DNA of 64,000 bases from Candidatus Gastranaerophilales bacterium. GTDB lineage: Bacteria > Cyanobacteriota > Vampirovibrionia > Gastranaerophilales > Gastranaerophilaceae. Under the pieces are notes generated by a model. It was given only the letters and a program-made list of their open reading frames with translations, had not been told where the DNA came from and searched no databases. The DNA lies in contig CALVAW010000001.1 in assembly GCA_944325655.1 (NCBI GenBank), forward strand, positions 1-64,000, in the 5' to 3' direction. The translations under genes and the position numbers were made by a program. This document shows, piece after piece, positions 11,100 through 21,413 of this stretch; positions within the stretch are counted from its first letter, which is position 1, and each line of letters starts with the position of its first letter.

Positions 11100-12614
11100 A
11101 TGGATTTAATATTTTATTTGACCCTGGGGCTTTTTATCCTGCTTTTCGGAACAATCGACAATAATATCGATTTTGATTTTTGGGCAAGATTAACAGTCGG
11201 AAAAAGTTTTATGCAAACGGGAGACCTGTTTAACTTCGACTTCCAATCCTGGGGCGCAACCCATGAATTTATAGACCATGAATGGGGTTCAAGTATAATT
11301 TTTTATTTAATACAAAATTATACTCACGACATAGGCTTATTCTTATTCAAATCAATAATAATTTTTCTGACTTTTTACACAATTACAAAAATTATACGCC
11401 TTGAAAATAAAAAAATACCACTACATTTTCTATTTTTCTTTTTCGCTATACATGCAATTTCATACAATATTTTTTCAACAATAAGATGTCAAACATTTTC
11501 TTTTTTGTTTTTTACAATTTATCTTTATATTTTAAGAAAAACATCAATAAATAAAAATTACAGAATACTTTGGTGTTTACCTGTATTAAATATTATTTGG
11601 ACAAATTTGCACGGTGGATTTGTAATCGGACTCATTTTAATTTTCATTTTTACAATAGGCGAATACCTTAATAAAAAAAATTTCAAACCATACCTTATAG
11701 CCTTTTTAGCATGTTGTGCCACATGTCTTATAAACCCGTACGGAATTAAATATATTACTTTTATTGTATCAGCTCTGGCTCTCAACAGAGAACATATTTC
11801 AGAATGGCAAAGCATGTTTTTCTCAAAAATATATAAACACTCTCTTTTAAAATTTGAATTATATTTTTACTGTGCAATTACGCTTTTTATTTATTCTGTC
11901 TTTAAAAATATTAAATTAGACGGAATTAAAAACTTTTATAACAAAATTGATAAAACAAAATATTTAATAATCCTTTTTACGATATTAATTTCTCTAAAAT
12001 CCATGCGCTTCCATGTTTTCTTTATATATACACTAATTTCTTATTGTTATTGTGATTTTTATAATATTTTTAATAAAAAATTACCCGCTAAAATAGACAA
12101 ATTAAAGGAAATAATACTTCTTGTACTTATCTTAATTTCAACAACATCACACATTATGGAATATAAATTTATAAATACGGTTAAACCCTCTCAATATCCT
12201 ATATATTGTATTGAGTTCATAAAAATAAACAACTTAAAAGGTAATATTTTTACCAATTTTCATACCGGAAGCTATGTTTCATACAAACTTTATCCTGATA
12301 ACAAAATTTTTATGGACGGAAGATACGAAGAAGTATATGATACAAATTTAATAAATGAAATGTCGGATGTATTTTTAGCTAAAAATTATAAAAAATTTTT
12401 TGAAAAATATCACACCGATATTATAATTGCAGATAAATATTACCCCTTGCATAAAAACCTGAAAAATGATTTAGATTGGTTTTTAGCTTATGAAGATAAA
12501 TATTTCGCACTTTTTTTAAAAAAAGATCAACAAAAAAAGTTTTTTAAATATCCGTTAAAAAGTCTGAAAGAATATAATAAAGAAAAATTCAAAACAAATA
12601 TAAATTGGCTATAA
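11100..12614 (+). CDS. Polytopic membrane protein, GT-C glycosyltransferase-like
   Basis: About 504 residues with roughly ten hydrophobic segments and a soluble C-terminal tail. The first loop 'DFDFWARLTVGKSFMQTGDL' followed by 'HEFIDHEWGSSIIFYL' matches the pattern of GT-C-fold transferases. In those enzymes an Asp-containing first loop precedes an 'H-x-W-G/L' stretch, and they use lipid-linked sugars. The substrate cannot be told. Start 11100 (MDLIF) is chosen over 11091 from the position of the -10 box. It is transcribed alone, and the last 6 bases overlap the converging nifS-like gene. Confidence 0.7.
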   Translation: MDLIFYLTLGLFILLFGTIDNNIDFDFWARLTVGKSFMQTGDLFNFDFQSWGATHEFIDHEWGSSIIFYLIQNYTHDIGLFLFKSIIIFLTFYTITKIIRLENKKIPLHFLFFFFAIHAISYNIFSTIRCQTFSFLFFTIYLYILRKTSINKNYRILWCLPVLNIIWTNLHGGFVIGLILIFIFTIGEYLNKKNFKPYLIAFLACCATCLINPYGIKYITFIVSALALNREHISEWQSMFFSKIYKHSLLKFELYFYCAITLFIYSVFKNIKLDGIKNFYNKIDKTKYLIILFTILISLKSMRFHVFFIYTLISYCYCDFYNIFNKKLPAKIDKLKEIILLVLILISTTSHIMEYKFINTVKPSQYPIYCIEFIKINNLKGNIFTNFHTGSYVSYKLYPDNKIFMDGRYEEVYDTNLINEMSDVFLAKNYKKFFEKYHTDIIIADKYYPLHKNLKNDLDWFLAYEDKYFALFLKKDQQKKFFKYPLKSLKEYNKEKFKTNINWL

Positions 12615-13805
12615 ACCAAGCGCATTGAGTTCACTTTGAAAAGGTGAAATTTTAGCAAGCTTTTTAATAACTTCTGGCACTTTTTCTATAGCATAATCAA
12701 TTTCTTCTTCTGTTGTAAATCTCGATAAAGAAAATCTTATAGCCCCATGTAAAGATGTAAAAGGTACTTTTTGTGCTCTTAAAACATGTGAAGGATCAAG
12801 GCTTCCCGAAGTGCAAGCACTTCCTGAAGAAGCACAAATTCCCAAATCGTTCAAATACAGCAAAATCAACTCACCTTCAATATATTCAAAACCTATATTA
12901 GTAGTATTTGGAACACGATTTGAGCTTTTTGAATTTAATTTTGCATTTCTTAATTGTGATAAAATCCCTTTTTCAAGTTTATCACGCAAGCGTTTAACTT
13001 CTTTTAATTCATATTCAAGACTTTCTTTTGCAAGCTGCGCAGCCTTCCCCATTCCTACAATATAAGGCGTGTTTTGAGTTCCGGCACGCAAAGAATATTC
13101 CTGATGACCTCCAAGCATAAAAGGCTCAAACAAAACACCTTTCTTAACATATAAAGCTCCAACACCCTTTGGAGCATGAAATTTATGACCCGAAATAGAA
13201 TAAAAATCAATTTCCGAGTTTTCAAGCTCAATAGGTATTTTTCCTGCCGCTTGAACGCCGTCAACAAAAACCTTAATATTTTTATTTATTTCTTTTGCTC
13301 TTTTAGCAATCTCATATACAGGATAAACAGCACCTGTTTCATTATTTGCATGCATAACAGACAAAAGAATTGTATTTGGAGTAATTTTTGAGAGCAAATT
13401 ATCAATATTTATCTCGCCATTTTCATCTACCGAAACATAAGTTGATTTATAACCTTTTTTTTCCAGATTTTCATAAACCGACAAAACACAAGGATGTTCA
13501 ACTTGAGTTGTTATGATATGATTTTTATTTTCTTTATCTCCATATTGAAACACAACACCTTTAATTGCAGTATTTGCAGATTCCGTTCCACAGGACGTAA
13601 AAATAACAGATTTCTCGTTTTCAACTCCTAAAAAATCAGCTACCTGTTTTCTTGCTTCTTCAATAGCATTTGCACAAACATGCGCACTATCGTACATACT
13701 CGAAGGATTTGCATAATTTTCCTTCAAATATGGAAGCATTTTTTCAAACACTTTTTCATCAATTTTCGTTGTTGCGTTATTATCCAAATATACTGTTTTT
13801 TTCAT
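12609..13805 (-). CDS. nifS: Cysteine desulfurase, NifS/IscS type
   Basis: PLP enzyme that takes sulfur from cysteine for Fe-S clusters. 398 residues: 'YLDNNATTKIDEKVF' start, 'HANNETGAVYPV', PLP-lysine segment 'YSISGHKFHAPKGVGALYV', and the catalytic Cys in 'CASSGSACTSGSLDPSHVL'. The short gap in that loop fits group I desulfurases. It follows the NifU gene by 4 nt with no ribosome site of its own, so translation is probably coupled. Nitrogenase genes are not seen; a housekeeping Fe-S role is inferred. Confidence 0.95.
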   Translation of the reverse strand: MKKTVYLDNNATTKIDEKVFEKMLPYLKENYANPSSMYDSAHVCANAIEEARKQVADFLGVENEKSVIFTSCGTESANTAIKGVVFQYGDKENKNHIITTQVEHPCVLSVYENLEKKGYKSTYVSVDENGEINIDNLLSKITPNTILLSVMHANNETGAVYPVYEIAKRAKEINKNIKVFVDGVQAAGKIPIELENSEIDFYSISGHKFHAPKGVGALYVKKGVLFEPFMLGGHQEYSLRAGTQNTPYIVGMGKAAQLAKESLEYELKEVKRLRDKLEKGILSQLRNAKLNSKSSNRVPNTTNIGFEYIEGELILLYLNDLGICASSGSACTSGSLDPSHVLRAQKVPFTSLHGAIRFSLSRFTTEEEIDYAIEKVPEVIKKLAKISPFQSELNALGL

Positions 13806-13809
13806 ATCA

Positions 13810-14634
13810 CTACTCGTTAAAAACTACTAATTCATCGTCTACAAGCTCTTTTAGCTTTGTTTCAACAAAATTTTTTAAAGTCATCTTTGCATTTGCACAA
13901 GTTGAACAATGTCCTTTCAGTTGAACATAAACATTGTTTCCTTCTACATTAACAAGCTCAATATCACCAAAGTCTTTTTGTAACTCCGGTGAAATAACAT
14001 TTTCTATAACATTATTTATTTTAATTATTTTCTGAACCGGATTTAACTTTGCAGACTTATCATTTTTTACATATTTCTTCAAAATTTTTTCTATATTTTC
14101 CTTGCATCTTCCGCATGCAAGACCTGCAGATGTAATTTTAGAAACATCATCCAATGTTTTAGCGCCATTTTTTACAATTGCATCTATTATATTCTTTTCA
14201 CTGACTCCAAAACAATGACATACAACCATCGAAGATTCATCATCTTCAACTACAAGCTCTTCCCAATCTTCACCTGTATAATTTTTAAGAGCATCTTCCA
14301 GGGCTTCTCTTCCCATAACAGAACAATGCATTTTTTCCGGCGGCAGCCCGTCTAAAGCTTCTGCAATTTGTTTATTTGTAATTTTTCTTGCTTCATCTAT
14401 AGATTTACCTATAATTAATTCCGTAAGAACACTTGAAGCAGCAACTGCCGAGCCGCAACCGAAAGTTTGAAATTTAGCATCCGTTATAATATTATTATCA
14501 ATTTTTAAATATAATTTTAATTTATCCCCGCATGAAAGTGCGCCTGCTTCTCCTATTGCATCGGCATTTTCGATTGAACCTACATTTTTAGGATTTTTAA
14601 AATGTTCTTTAACTTTATCCGAATATTCCCACAT
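13810..14634 (-). CDS. nifU: Three-domain NifU Fe-S scaffold
   Basis: 274 residues with the full NifU layout. The IscU-like scaffold (1-125) has 'GEAGALSCGD', 'TFGCGSAVAASS' and 'KMHCSVMG' for the three cluster Cys. The central BFD-like [2Fe-2S] domain (about 135-190) has 'VCHCFGVSE' and 'GLACGRCKENIEK'. The C-terminal Nfu domain has 'LKGHCSTCANAKMTLKNFV'. The ATG at 14634 has GAAGG 5 nt upstream; a TTG at 14646 would overlap that site. It is first in a nifU-nifS operon. This long form is known from nitrogen fixers, epsilonproteobacteria and relatives of cyanobacteria. Confidence 0.95.
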   Translation of the reverse strand: MWEYSDKVKEHFKNPKNVGSIENADAIGEAGALSCGDKLKLYLKIDNNIITDAKFQTFGCGSAVAASSVLTELIIGKSIDEARKITNKQIAEALDGLPPEKMHCSVMGREALEDALKNYTGEDWEELVVEDDESSMVVCHCFGVSEKNIIDAIVKNGAKTLDDVSKITSAGLACGRCKENIEKILKKYVKNDKSAKLNPVQKIIKINNVIENVISPELQKDFGDIELVNVEGNNVYVQLKGHCSTCANAKMTLKNFVETKLKELVDDELVVFNE

Positions 14635-14730
14635 AATTACCTTCAAATTTTCTGTATAAAAAAATTATAGCACCTAAAAATCCTACGCCTATATGGCAAA
14701 AAAAATCAAATTTAAGTGCATAATTATATT

Positions 14731-18227: not shown

Positions 18228-20267
18228 TTATTTTTTATTAATCTTAATTTCTTTCTTTAATTCATTAATAAATTCATCTCTGTATAAAAAGCCCAAATGG
18301 GCACCGTTGCTAAAAAGAGTCAATTTATTATCGCAATAGTTCTTTAATAATGAAAGCTGCTTTTTATTTATCAAATAATCATCCAAACTATGAAAAATTC
18401 TATAATTATCGGAATTTATCAAATAACTCGAAATTGAATTTAAACTGCTTAATATTTTTAATTCATCATAAGAACAATCGACCAAAAGATATTTTTTTAT
18501 ATAATCACTAAAATCTGAATTATAAATTAAATTATAGAATTCTTTGCTGCTAAAATTCGGATTACTTTCTTTTTCGGTTTCATAAGTTAAATCAGACAAT
18601 TTTTGATGAAAAACAAAAGCACTGATTAATTTTCCTTCATAAGTGCTAAATGGAAGAGTCTCAATTTTCCTTCCGCTTTCTTTTGCTTCGCTATATGCCC
18701 TCATAACTTTTGCCGTTGTTATTGCAACTTTCTCCTTAAGATTATCCGGACAATTTTTCCAAGAAGCTATAATTTTATCTATTTGTTCTATAGCATAAGT
18801 GAGTTCAAACGGCGGACAAACCGCAATAAACTTATCTATATTATTAGCGCCGTTTTGATACTGTTCATTTGCTAAAAATAAAACCGCATACGCCCCGAGC
18901 GAAGTTCCAAGAGCCGTTCTTTCAAGAAAAACCCTATCATATTTTTTCGACAAATAAGCAATTGCATTATTTATTAAAATTTCTATATATTTTACGTCAT
19001 TTTTTATAATTCCTATTTTATAGCCTTTATCTATACTTTTTAAAAATTCCCACTGAAAATGACTTCCCAAAATTAAAACGCTATAACCTTCATCATAAAA
19101 AATTTTAGCTAAAATTGTACTGTGATTATTATTTACACCCTCGCCAACCGAAGGAAAAAGTATAACAAGGGGAGAAGTCTTGTCTTTTTGCAAAATATAT
19201 CTAAAAGAATATTTTGGCCTGTCTTTAGATATTTCAACAGCATCTGTTTTAATTTTTTTATCAAAACTTCTGTTCCACAAAGAAACTTCCTGCCAAGCAG
19301 ATTTATTTATATTCCTTACATCTAAAAAAGCTGTTCGCATTGAATCTAATATTGGATTTTGAGGATTATAATCCGATAAAAAAATGTCCGCAGTAAGTTC
19401 TTTAGCATAATAATCACCAATTATTAAATTAGGACTTTCTTTTAAAGAACCTTTAACCTGCAACACTTCTTCATTTTTTTGATTATCCACCAAATCCAAT
19501 TCATCCGAATCATTATTTTCTAAATTTTCAAGCACATTCTTTCTGTCATAATTTGAAAGCTTAATATATTTTTCCACACCAAAAAATTTTCTTGCAATAT
19601 CATAAGGATCCGCGAAGTTTGATTCAACCATCTTTACCATAGGCTGAATATGTGCAGTTCTGTTAATTAATAATCCCATCTTAATTGCAGCAGCTATTGG
19701 AGTTGCAATATATGTTGTAGGATTAAGAGCAAAATCAAGCAGTCTTCCCGTAACATCCCTTGTTGTTGTTGAAGAAATAAAAGGCAAAACAATAAAATTA
19801 CCGCACTTCATCTTACATTTTGCAAGCGCTTGCTCCATATCTTCGTTATACATCTCAAGATGAAAAATTTTATAAGCTACGTCAATAAGCCCTGCAGCAC
19901 CAATGGTAGTATTGATTAAAAATCTCTTGGTTTCATTTTTAACCGCATCAAAATCTCTCTGCAAAAGAGAACTGACAAGCCTCTTCGGGTATTCAATATT
20001 AGAATACATATTATTTAAAGAATCAATCACAAAATTAGGAAAAATTGATGCCCACACAACATGAACTTTTCTTAAAAATATCTTATTCATTTTTAAATTA
20101 AAATTAAAAACTTTTCTGTTAAAATTTTCATATTTATCTTCATTTAAATAAATATCGCCATAACTTGGATATTTTTGTATATTTTTTGTTAATTCTTCTC
20201 CAAAAACCGTTCCGCTGCCACAAAAAACAAAATTAATCATTAAAATAAAAGCAATTATTTTTTTCAA
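18228..20267 (-). CDS. MlaA (VacJ) domain fused to alpha/beta hydrolase
   Basis: About 679 residues in two parts. After a signal peptide, residues ~45-225 match MlaA/VacJ, the outer-membrane component of phospholipid trafficking: 'YENFNRKVFNFNLKMNKIFL', 'NFVIDSLNNMYSNIEYPKRL', 'RFLINTTIGAAGLIDVAYKI'. An Asn/Asp/Glu-rich linker follows. Residues ~350-675 look like an alpha/beta hydrolase: 'LVILFPSVGEGVNNNHS', nucleophile elbow 'GTSLGAYAV' (Ser near 456) and a late 'NGAHLGFLY' His. No good lipobox is seen ('FVFC'), so it may be soluble or differently anchored. The TTG at 20267 is chosen: it gives a normal MKK signal peptide with GAGG 9 nt upstream. A phospholipase or acyltransferase role is inferred. 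No mlaBCDEF genes are nearby. Confidence 0.8.
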   Translation of the reverse strand: MKKIIAFILMINFVFCGSGTVFGEELTKNIQKYPSYGDIYLNEDKYENFNRKVFNFNLKMNKIFLRKVHVVWASIFPNFVIDSLNNMYSNIEYPKRLVSSLLQRDFDAVKNETKRFLINTTIGAAGLIDVAYKIFHLEMYNEDMEQALAKCKMKCGNFIVLPFISSTTTRDVTGRLLDFALNPTTYIATPIAAAIKMGLLINRTAHIQPMVKMVESNFADPYDIARKFFGVEKYIKLSNYDRKNVLENLENNDSDELDLVDNQKNEEVLQVKGSLKESPNLIIGDYYAKELTADIFLSDYNPQNPILDSMRTAFLDVRNINKSAWQEVSLWNRSFDKKIKTDAVEISKDRPKYSFRYILQKDKTSPLVILFPSVGEGVNNNHSTILAKIFYDEGYSVLILGSHFQWEFLKSIDKGYKIGIIKNDVKYIEILINNAIAYLSKKYDRVFLERTALGTSLGAYAVLFLANEQYQNGANNIDKFIAVCPPFELTYAIEQIDKIIASWKNCPDNLKEKVAITTAKVMRAYSEAKESGRKIETLPFSTYEGKLISAFVFHQKLSDLTYETEKESNPNFSSKEFYNLIYNSDFSDYIKKYLLVDCSYDELKILSSLNSISSYLINSDNYRIFHSLDDYLINKKQLSLLKNYCDNKLTLFSNGAHLGFLYRDEFINELKKEIKINKK

Positions 20268-20364
20268 TTTATAGATCCTCAAAAAATTTAATTCATTTAA
20301 ATTTATATGCTCTATTTAAAAAAAATAAAATTAGCTTATCTTCTATCCGTCTGATTAATTGCAC

Positions 20365-20391
20365 TAAAAAACCGCCTGATAAACAGGCGGT
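20365..20391 (-). terminator. Terminator for the small membrane protein genes
   Basis: Read on minus: ACCGCCTG/CAGGCGGT with a 5-nt loop, followed by T residues. It lies downstream of the 20411 gene and upstream of the MlaA-hydrolase gene, so these are separate units. Confidence 0.85.
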
Positions 20392-20410: not shown

Positions 20411-20671
20411 CTATTTTTTAACTTCAGAAACTTTGCTTACTACGCCTTTTATACATTTTATAGCAAGCACTATTGCTGCAACCACAGCAGCCAAACCAAT
20501 ATACGTTTCTTTATTTGTCTTCTTTTTTACTTCCTGAACTACAGAACTTTTTACAAACGAATCAGTTTTTTCTACTACAAAGCTACGAGCTTTTGAAGCA
20601 CCTTTCGAAATTCTTGTGCCTATTTCATTCAAGCCGTCAACTACTCGTGATGAAAAATTTGTAACTTGCAT
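20411..20671 (-). CDS. Small single-span membrane protein
   Basis: 86 residues, not recognised. A basic helix-rich N-terminal half ('VVDGLNEIGTRISKGASKA') is followed by one membrane segment near residues 55-78 ('YIGLAAVVAAIVLAIKCI') and a short basic tail. AAGGTG precedes the ATG. It lies 22 nt after the 20694 gene, which also has hydrophobic stretches and starts with 'MQV', so the two are probably an operon. Its layout resembles the truncated reading frame at 36292-36561 (soluble helix, then one span, then basic tail). Confidence 0.75.
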   Translation of the reverse strand: MQVTNFSSRVVDGLNEIGTRISKGASKARSFVVEKTDSFVKSSVVQEVKKKTNKETYIGLAAVVAAIVLAIKCIKGVVSKVSEVKK

Positions 20672-20693
20672 ATTATCACCTTATATAAATAAA

Positions 20694-21413
20694 CTACAGA
20701 ACGCTACCGACCAATTCAACAGCAGTATTTATTCCGTCATTGATAAGCTTGTCTTTTGCTCTTTTAATTTCCTTTTCGTCCAAAACACCTTCAACTTTAT
20801 CAGCAGCTTTATCAGCAACGCCTACAGCAATTCCGCCGACTGCTATATTTCTTACAAGATCAGTGAAATTTTGAATTCCAAGTTTTTTCATTATACCAAC
20901 AACCTTAGCACCGTTTGAAATATCGCCGCTGCCTTTTGTAAATACACCATCTACAAAATTAGAAATACCGCTAAGCATTTTTTCATTAGGAGCTCCATTA
21001 ATCAAATTTTCAACTTTTGCAGCAATTTTTCCTTTTACGCTTTCAACATTAATTTTTTTGATTAATTTACCTGCAGCACCTACAACACCATTTGCAACAG
21101 TTCGTCCTGCAATCAAAACTGTATTCATTATAGGTTTTGCAATCTTATTTCCCTTAGTTATTGCACCTATAAAAAGCAATGCACTGGTTGCAACCGTAGC
21201 AAATCTTACATTATTGTCAGCTCTTCTGACTGTATCAATATATTCTCTTAATTTATCTTCTTTGTGCATTTTACTCAATGCTTCTTCTTCCGAATGAAAC
21301 TCAGAAGGTCTTCTATTTAATCCTGCTGACCTTTCTTCATCTGACGATGGAGCCGGAAGATATATTATTTCATTACTTCTGAAATTAATAGGTTTAACTG
21401 CGTTTACTTGCAT
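20694..21413 (-). CDS. Uncharacterised protein with INFRS motif and Gly/Ala-rich hydrophobic region
   Basis: 239 residues, not recognised. Starts 'MQVNAVKPINFRSNE', the F-[KR]-[GSN] type N-terminus, then an acidic segment 'PSSDEERSAGLNRRPSEF'. One hydrophobic helix lies near residues 70-90 ('FATVATSALLFIGAI'). A long Gly/Ala/Val/Lys-rich amphipathic body follows, with 'RNIAVGGIAVGVADKAADKV' near the end. This recalls membrane-associating or pore-forming-like helices but no family is claimed. AGGAGC lies upstream of the ATG. It is first gene of a pair with 20411. Confidence 0.7.
   Translation of the reverse strand: MQVNAVKPINFRSNEIIYLPAPSSDEERSAGLNRRPSEFHSEEEALSKMHKEDKLREYIDTVRRADNNVRFATVATSALLFIGAITKGNKIAKPIMNTVLIAGRTVANGVVGAAGKLIKKINVESVKGKIAAKVENLINGAPNEKMLSGISNFVDGVFTKGSGDISNGAKVVGIMKKLGIQNFTDLVRNIAVGGIAVGVADKAADKVEGVLDEKEIKRAKDKLINDGINTAVELVGSVL

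Follow-up and report, generated by a model that had tools for sequence, protein, structure and literature searches.

A probable natural fusion joining an MlaZ-type MlaA protein to the phospholipase MlaY in Gastranaerophilales

Introduction

Gastranaerophilales are gut relatives of the cyanobacteria. In one member of this order, a single open reading frame appears to join an MlaA phospholipid-trafficking domain to an alpha/beta hydrolase, which raises the question of whether the two halves belong together and, if so, what the protein would do with the lipid. The frame lies in a stretch of 64,000 nucleotides (the window; contig CALVAW010000001.1, positions 1 to 64,000, forward strand), taken from a genome of 1.69 Mb that is 98.8% complete. 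A point of comparison is offered by the recently described MlaYZ pathway of Pseudomonas aeruginosa, where MlaZ (PA3239), an MlaA homologue, and MlaY (PA3238), a lipase, are described in a review as removing and degrading misplaced phospholipid (PMC11131202). An E. coli pldA mutant is also reported to be rescued by MlaYZ (PMC11131202, PMC11977310). A hand-off of lipid from MlaZ to MlaY has been proposed, direct proof of which was not found in the accessible literature.

Results

Gene and domain organization

The gene occupies positions 18228..20267 on the minus strand and encodes 679 aa from a TTG at 20267, which is the preferred start and also the gene end given in the original prediction. A Shine-Dalgarno-like GAGG (20277..20280, minus), read directly from the DNA, lies 9 nt 5′ of this codon. 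An alternative in-frame TTG at 20282 would yield a 684-aa form, and it is this form that is used here for residue numbering. An intrinsic-terminator-like stem-loop at the end of the upstream gene (20371..20391, minus; 8 pairs, 6 of them G-C, and a T tail) suggests that the fusion gene is transcribed alone. In a contig profile search, the best 80 of 174 relatives, mostly titled Gastranaerophilales, Melainabacteria or uncultured bacterium, shared no conserved neighbours of the gene past genus level, and given both the terminator and this limited conservation it is probably a single-gene unit. In 17 of these 80, rarA lies upstream, and the neighbour clusters listed for them include no obvious lipid gene. 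In the window itself, short, poorly characterised proteins are encoded upstream of the fusion gene (20694-21413, and a small gene at about 20418-20672 on the minus strand); similar ones precede it in just 13-14 of the best 80 relatives, the closest ones. Further away, at 12609-14646, a NifS-like cysteine desulfurase adjoins a NifU-like scaffold, apparently an iron-sulfur assembly locus as far as the ORF translations tell.

From its N terminus, the encoded protein has a signal peptide and then an MlaA domain, which a flexible linker connects to an alpha/beta hydrolase domain. The signal peptide (residues 6-28; 20199..20267, minus), delimited from the sequence and by comparison with relatives, has no lipobox, as originally predicted, and in 77 of 79 relatives the signal peptide is likewise of the A-x-A type and a canonical lipobox is missing. 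The MlaA (MlaZ) domain (residues 48-234; 19581..20141, minus) matches Pfam PF04333 with an E-value of 4e-43 and a score of 147.7 bits, against a curated cut-off of 25. In Foldseek, the N-terminal half matches the solved MlaA structures 5nur, 5nuo and 8i8r with TM-scores, normalised by target, of 0.70-0.85, and BLASTP aligns it with P. aeruginosa MlaZ at E 8e-20. The core MlaA residues are invariant throughout the alignment of the fusion family. In a tree of MlaA domains, those of the fusions form one clade apart from proteobacterial MlaA and group with MlaZ rather than with MlaA, weakly and on a long branch (support 73/51). The linker (residues 250-294; 19401..19535, minus) varies in length and sequence in the alignment and was modelled with pLDDT <50 at residues 259-293 by AlphaFold2, which was run with 29 natural sequences and gave a whole-protein pLDDT of 78.9.

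The hydrolase half and its relationship to MlaY

The C-terminal domain (residues 295-684; 18228..19400, minus) went unrecognised in Pfam and NCBIfam scans, the best Pfam match being Abhydrolase_1 at E 0.03, under the cut-off, and a profile of this half matched no PDB sequence. By structure prediction it is confidently an alpha/beta hydrolase (pLDDT 86.6, pTM 0.88), and a Foldseek search with the model retrieved many PDB esterases and lipases with E-values down to 5.6e-9. With about 380 aa, the domain is longer than the ~320 residues first assigned to it. The GTSLG serine and the late histidine that had been singled out in the original prediction are both invariant and occupy canonical places. 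The nucleophile Ser461 lies in a G-T-S-x-G motif (18900..18902, minus), the putative catalytic acid is Asp635 (18378..18380, minus), and His662 lies in an N-G-x-H-L-G motif (18297..18299, minus); counting the sequences that cover each site, serine is found in 110 of 110, aspartate in 108 of 108 and histidine in 108 of 108. The model runs from a strand through Ser461 into a helix, forming a nucleophile elbow, then through a helical cap or lid (residues 494-623; 18414..18803, minus, from predicted secondary structure) to a strand followed by Asp635, with His662 before the final helix, so that the predicted positions of all three residues along the hydrolase fold are the canonical ones.

HHalign aligned the C-terminal half with four MlaY proteins at E 2.6e-27 over 310 columns and with MlaY alone at E 3.6e-21, whereas prolyl aminopeptidase, an unrelated protein of the same fold that served as control, gave E 0.12. 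BLASTP against MlaY gave E 1e-17, at an identity of just about 21%. Ser461, Asp635 and His662 align exactly with MlaY Ser187, Asp388 and His415, the residues reported for the MlaY active site (PMC11977310), and the spacing between Asp and His is 27 in both proteins. Judged by sequence, the C-terminal half is a MlaY homologue along its length, and the most fitting interpretation of the whole protein is a natural fusion of MlaZ with MlaY. The site of the acid (18378-18383) differs in one respect between the two forms: in the separate MlaY proteins (n=4) the first Asp of a D-D/E pair is invariant, with either Asp or Glu at the position of Asp388; the fusions instead keep the second position of the pair invariant.

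It had also been considered that the hydrolase half might transfer, rather than release, acyl chains, moving them from the extracted phospholipid to lipid A, another phospholipid or a protein. Alpha/beta hydrolases are able to transfer acyl groups, the distant Foldseek matches include homoserine O-acetyltransferase, and PagP provides a precedent in moving an acyl chain from an outer-leaflet lipid to another acceptor. However, no acceptor site is evident, and MlaY, the sole close relative with genetic data, is described as a lipid-degrading lipase. An acyltransferase therefore appears unlikely. Homology to MlaY of the MlaYZ pathway makes cleavage much likelier than acyl transfer, and of the two outcomes of lipid removal originally proposed it is thus cleavage that gains support.

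Relatives of the hydrolase half were also found as separate proteins. A tblastn search of 72,556 plasmid records with the C-terminal half matched just four loci, at E 5e-7 to 4e-5; three of these are from P. aeruginosa and the fourth is from Fusobacterium vincentii, and all lie beside an mlaA-family gene. With MlaY as query, two further mlaY-mlaZ pairs, from Skermanella, came to light in the same records. The P. aeruginosa stretch encodes an acetate symporter, a DUF485 protein, a glycine-betaine binding protein, a DUF2061 protein, the hydrolase, VacJ, a pirin, a patatin and a lauroyl acyltransferase, which is the order of PA3234-PA3242 and identifies its hydrolase and VacJ as MlaY and MlaZ. 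In F. vincentii (L155:3288-5328) the mlaY-mlaZ pair is unannotated and overlapping, and MlaZ there has a lipobox-like sequence. On the Skermanella plasmids (L158:2393-6212, L159:2402-6266) tamB follows mlaY-mlaZ, an arrangement that connects a lipid transporter of the AsmA-like type with the MlaYZ pathway.

In Pseudomonas, Fusobacterium and Skermanella, the separate homologues are thus each paired with an MlaA-family gene, and this also bears on the idea that the MlaA domain is a mere membrane anchor for a general periplasmic esterase, whose substrate would be an external lipid or ester, dietary or from the host, encountered in the gut. The hosts of the fusion are indeed gut bacteria, and a membrane-embedded domain could serve as an anchor in a protein that has no lipid anchor. 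Yet such a role would leave the pairing unaccounted for and would not call for the invariance of the core MlaA residues, which goes beyond the needs of an anchor, and we consider it improbable.

Lipid-trafficking genes in the same genome

The absence of Mla transporter genes near the fusion, remarked on in the original prediction, holds for its surroundings, but not for the genome, in which mlaE-mlaF-mlaD lie directly upstream of lpxK on another contig (C5; L151:2948-6921). The MlaD protein is elongated (454 aa) and, by eye, has no obvious C-terminal barrel. Two more single-MCE proteins are encoded on contigs C7 and C12, with no adjoining permease gene. MlaC (PF05494) was found in none of 58 genomes, the positive controls E. 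coli and Caulobacter being matched; with positive controls likewise in place, PldA (PF02253) was found in none of 58 genomes and LolA in none of 21. Melainabacteria have been reported to possess a diderm envelope (PMC4040986), and the lipid A genes of the genome are consistent with this. A missing lipobox alongside a missing LolA has been remarked on for Terrabacteria (PMC10665443), and the missing lipobox of the fusion fits the missing LolA. In E. coli, overexpression of PldA replaces Mla function (PMC5874903), so that breaking lipid down can work in place of transporting it. Since mlaE-mlaF-mlaD are present but MlaC, PldA and LolA are not, the likely role of the fusion is to degrade lipid in place.

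The same gene complement could be taken to mean that the fusion feeds lipid to MlaEFD, its hydrolase domain being a non-cleaving lipid carrier that stands in for MlaC. A hydrolase fold could bind lipid, and the genome does have MlaEFD and no MlaC. But a carrier would have no need of the three catalytic residues, which are invariant wherever they are covered, and genomes without the fusion still have MCE proteins; this makes a carrier function very unlikely.

Distribution of the fusion

The search for the same fusion in other genomes, suggested originally, was successful. Of 386 sampled genomes spanning the phylum, 92 contain PF04333, and these all belong to two families of one order, Gastranaerophilales. 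Every complete PF04333 frame is the same fusion, of 650-827 aa; the one exception is a 380-aa fragment with the hydrolase on another contig. The hydrolase profile matched 93 genomes, namely the same 92 and one with a marginal partial match, so that neither half was found whole on its own in the phylum. These findings, together with the PF04333 match and the predicted hydrolase fold, confirm that an MlaA domain and an alpha/beta hydrolase share one reading frame. In the sample of closest relatives, 32 of 58 genomes have the fusion. Many Gastranaerophilales genomes are without it, including one that is 99% complete (G003), and the gene is therefore not essential to the order. Full fusions with about 50% identity also occur in one Muribaculaceae-titled and one Fusobacterium-titled record, for which mislabelled bins are a likelier explanation than transfer. 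As the contig search covers the best 80 of 174 relatives, rarer fusions may exist beyond this order.

Most of the genomes are metagenome-assembled, but an assembly or binning artefact, or proteobacterial contamination, is refuted by the conserved frame, which recurs in these 92 genomes, in many genera and on contigs of up to 1 Mb, and by the single clade that the fusions form apart from proteobacterial MlaA, leaving it a negligible probability.

Discussion

We consider it probable, with good confidence, that an MlaZ-type MlaA protein and the phospholipase MlaY have been naturally fused in this gene, and that its product extracts misplaced phospholipid from the outer membrane and cleaves it. 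The fusion would be exported by way of its cleavable signal peptide and would presumably reside in the outer membrane, where the MlaA domain would give outer-leaflet phospholipid access to the periplasmic side. The hydrolase, tethered by the flexible linker, would take up the lipid directly and cleave its acyl esters by means of Ser461-Asp635-His662, and fatty acids together with lysophospholipid or glycerophosphodiester would be released into the periplasm. With the lipase held by fusion where lipid would leave the pore, a carrier would no longer be needed; the protein may thus cover both the MlaA-to-MlaC hand-off and the job of PldA, MlaC and PldA being missing from the genome.

Comparison with known systems puts the fusion closest to MlaZ-MlaY (PA3239-PA3238) of P. 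aeruginosa, to which it is similar in the homology of both halves, in the alignment of the triad residues, in the lack of a lipobox in MlaZ and in the proposed job, the removal and degradation of misplaced phospholipid. There, two proteins are encoded by an operon in which mlaY precedes mlaZ, whereas here MlaZ precedes MlaY in one protein, and this reversal of order counts against the reading as a fusion of the two. P. aeruginosa MlaY has moreover been called a lipoprotein (PMC10474453), unlike the fusion, which shows no lipobox, and P. aeruginosa additionally possesses the full MlaA-MlaC-MlaBDEF route. With MlaA (VacJ) of E. coli the fusion shares the domain, at 26% identity, and the core motifs, but the E. 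coli protein is a 251-aa lipoprotein with a lipobox that hands lipid to MlaC, whereas the fusion has no lipobox, carries a hydrolase and occurs where MlaC is absent. The proposed outcome, degradation of outer-leaflet phospholipid, is that of PldA, a beta-barrel (PF02253) which differs from the fusion in fold and in its access to substrate. The genome finally resembles the MlaEFD-only systems of diderm Terrabacteria such as Veillonella parvula in having mlaE, mlaF and an elongated mlaD but no MlaC. Such Terrabacteria have been reported to be without any MlaA, MlaABC being stated to be totally absent from the diderm members (PMC10665443); the present genome, by contrast, encodes a protein of the MlaA family joined to a hydrolase, which corrects that statement at least for MlaA. 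What is new is thus the fusion itself, its missing lipid anchor and the occurrence of MlaA-family proteins in a Terrabacterium.

That a distant phylum has retained a natural fusion in many of its genera provides independent evidence for both halves working together, and if the reading proposed here is true, MlaZ would pass lipid straight into the active site of MlaY. As a single chain, the fusion also lends itself to structural and kinetic work. Lineages without MlaC can evidently still use an MlaA domain. For the Gastranaerophilales that have the gene, it seems somewhat more plausible than otherwise that a single self-contained protein keeps outer-membrane lipid asymmetry, replacing the MlaC shuttle and PldA, in cells where this would be done without lipid anchors and with no detectable LolA.
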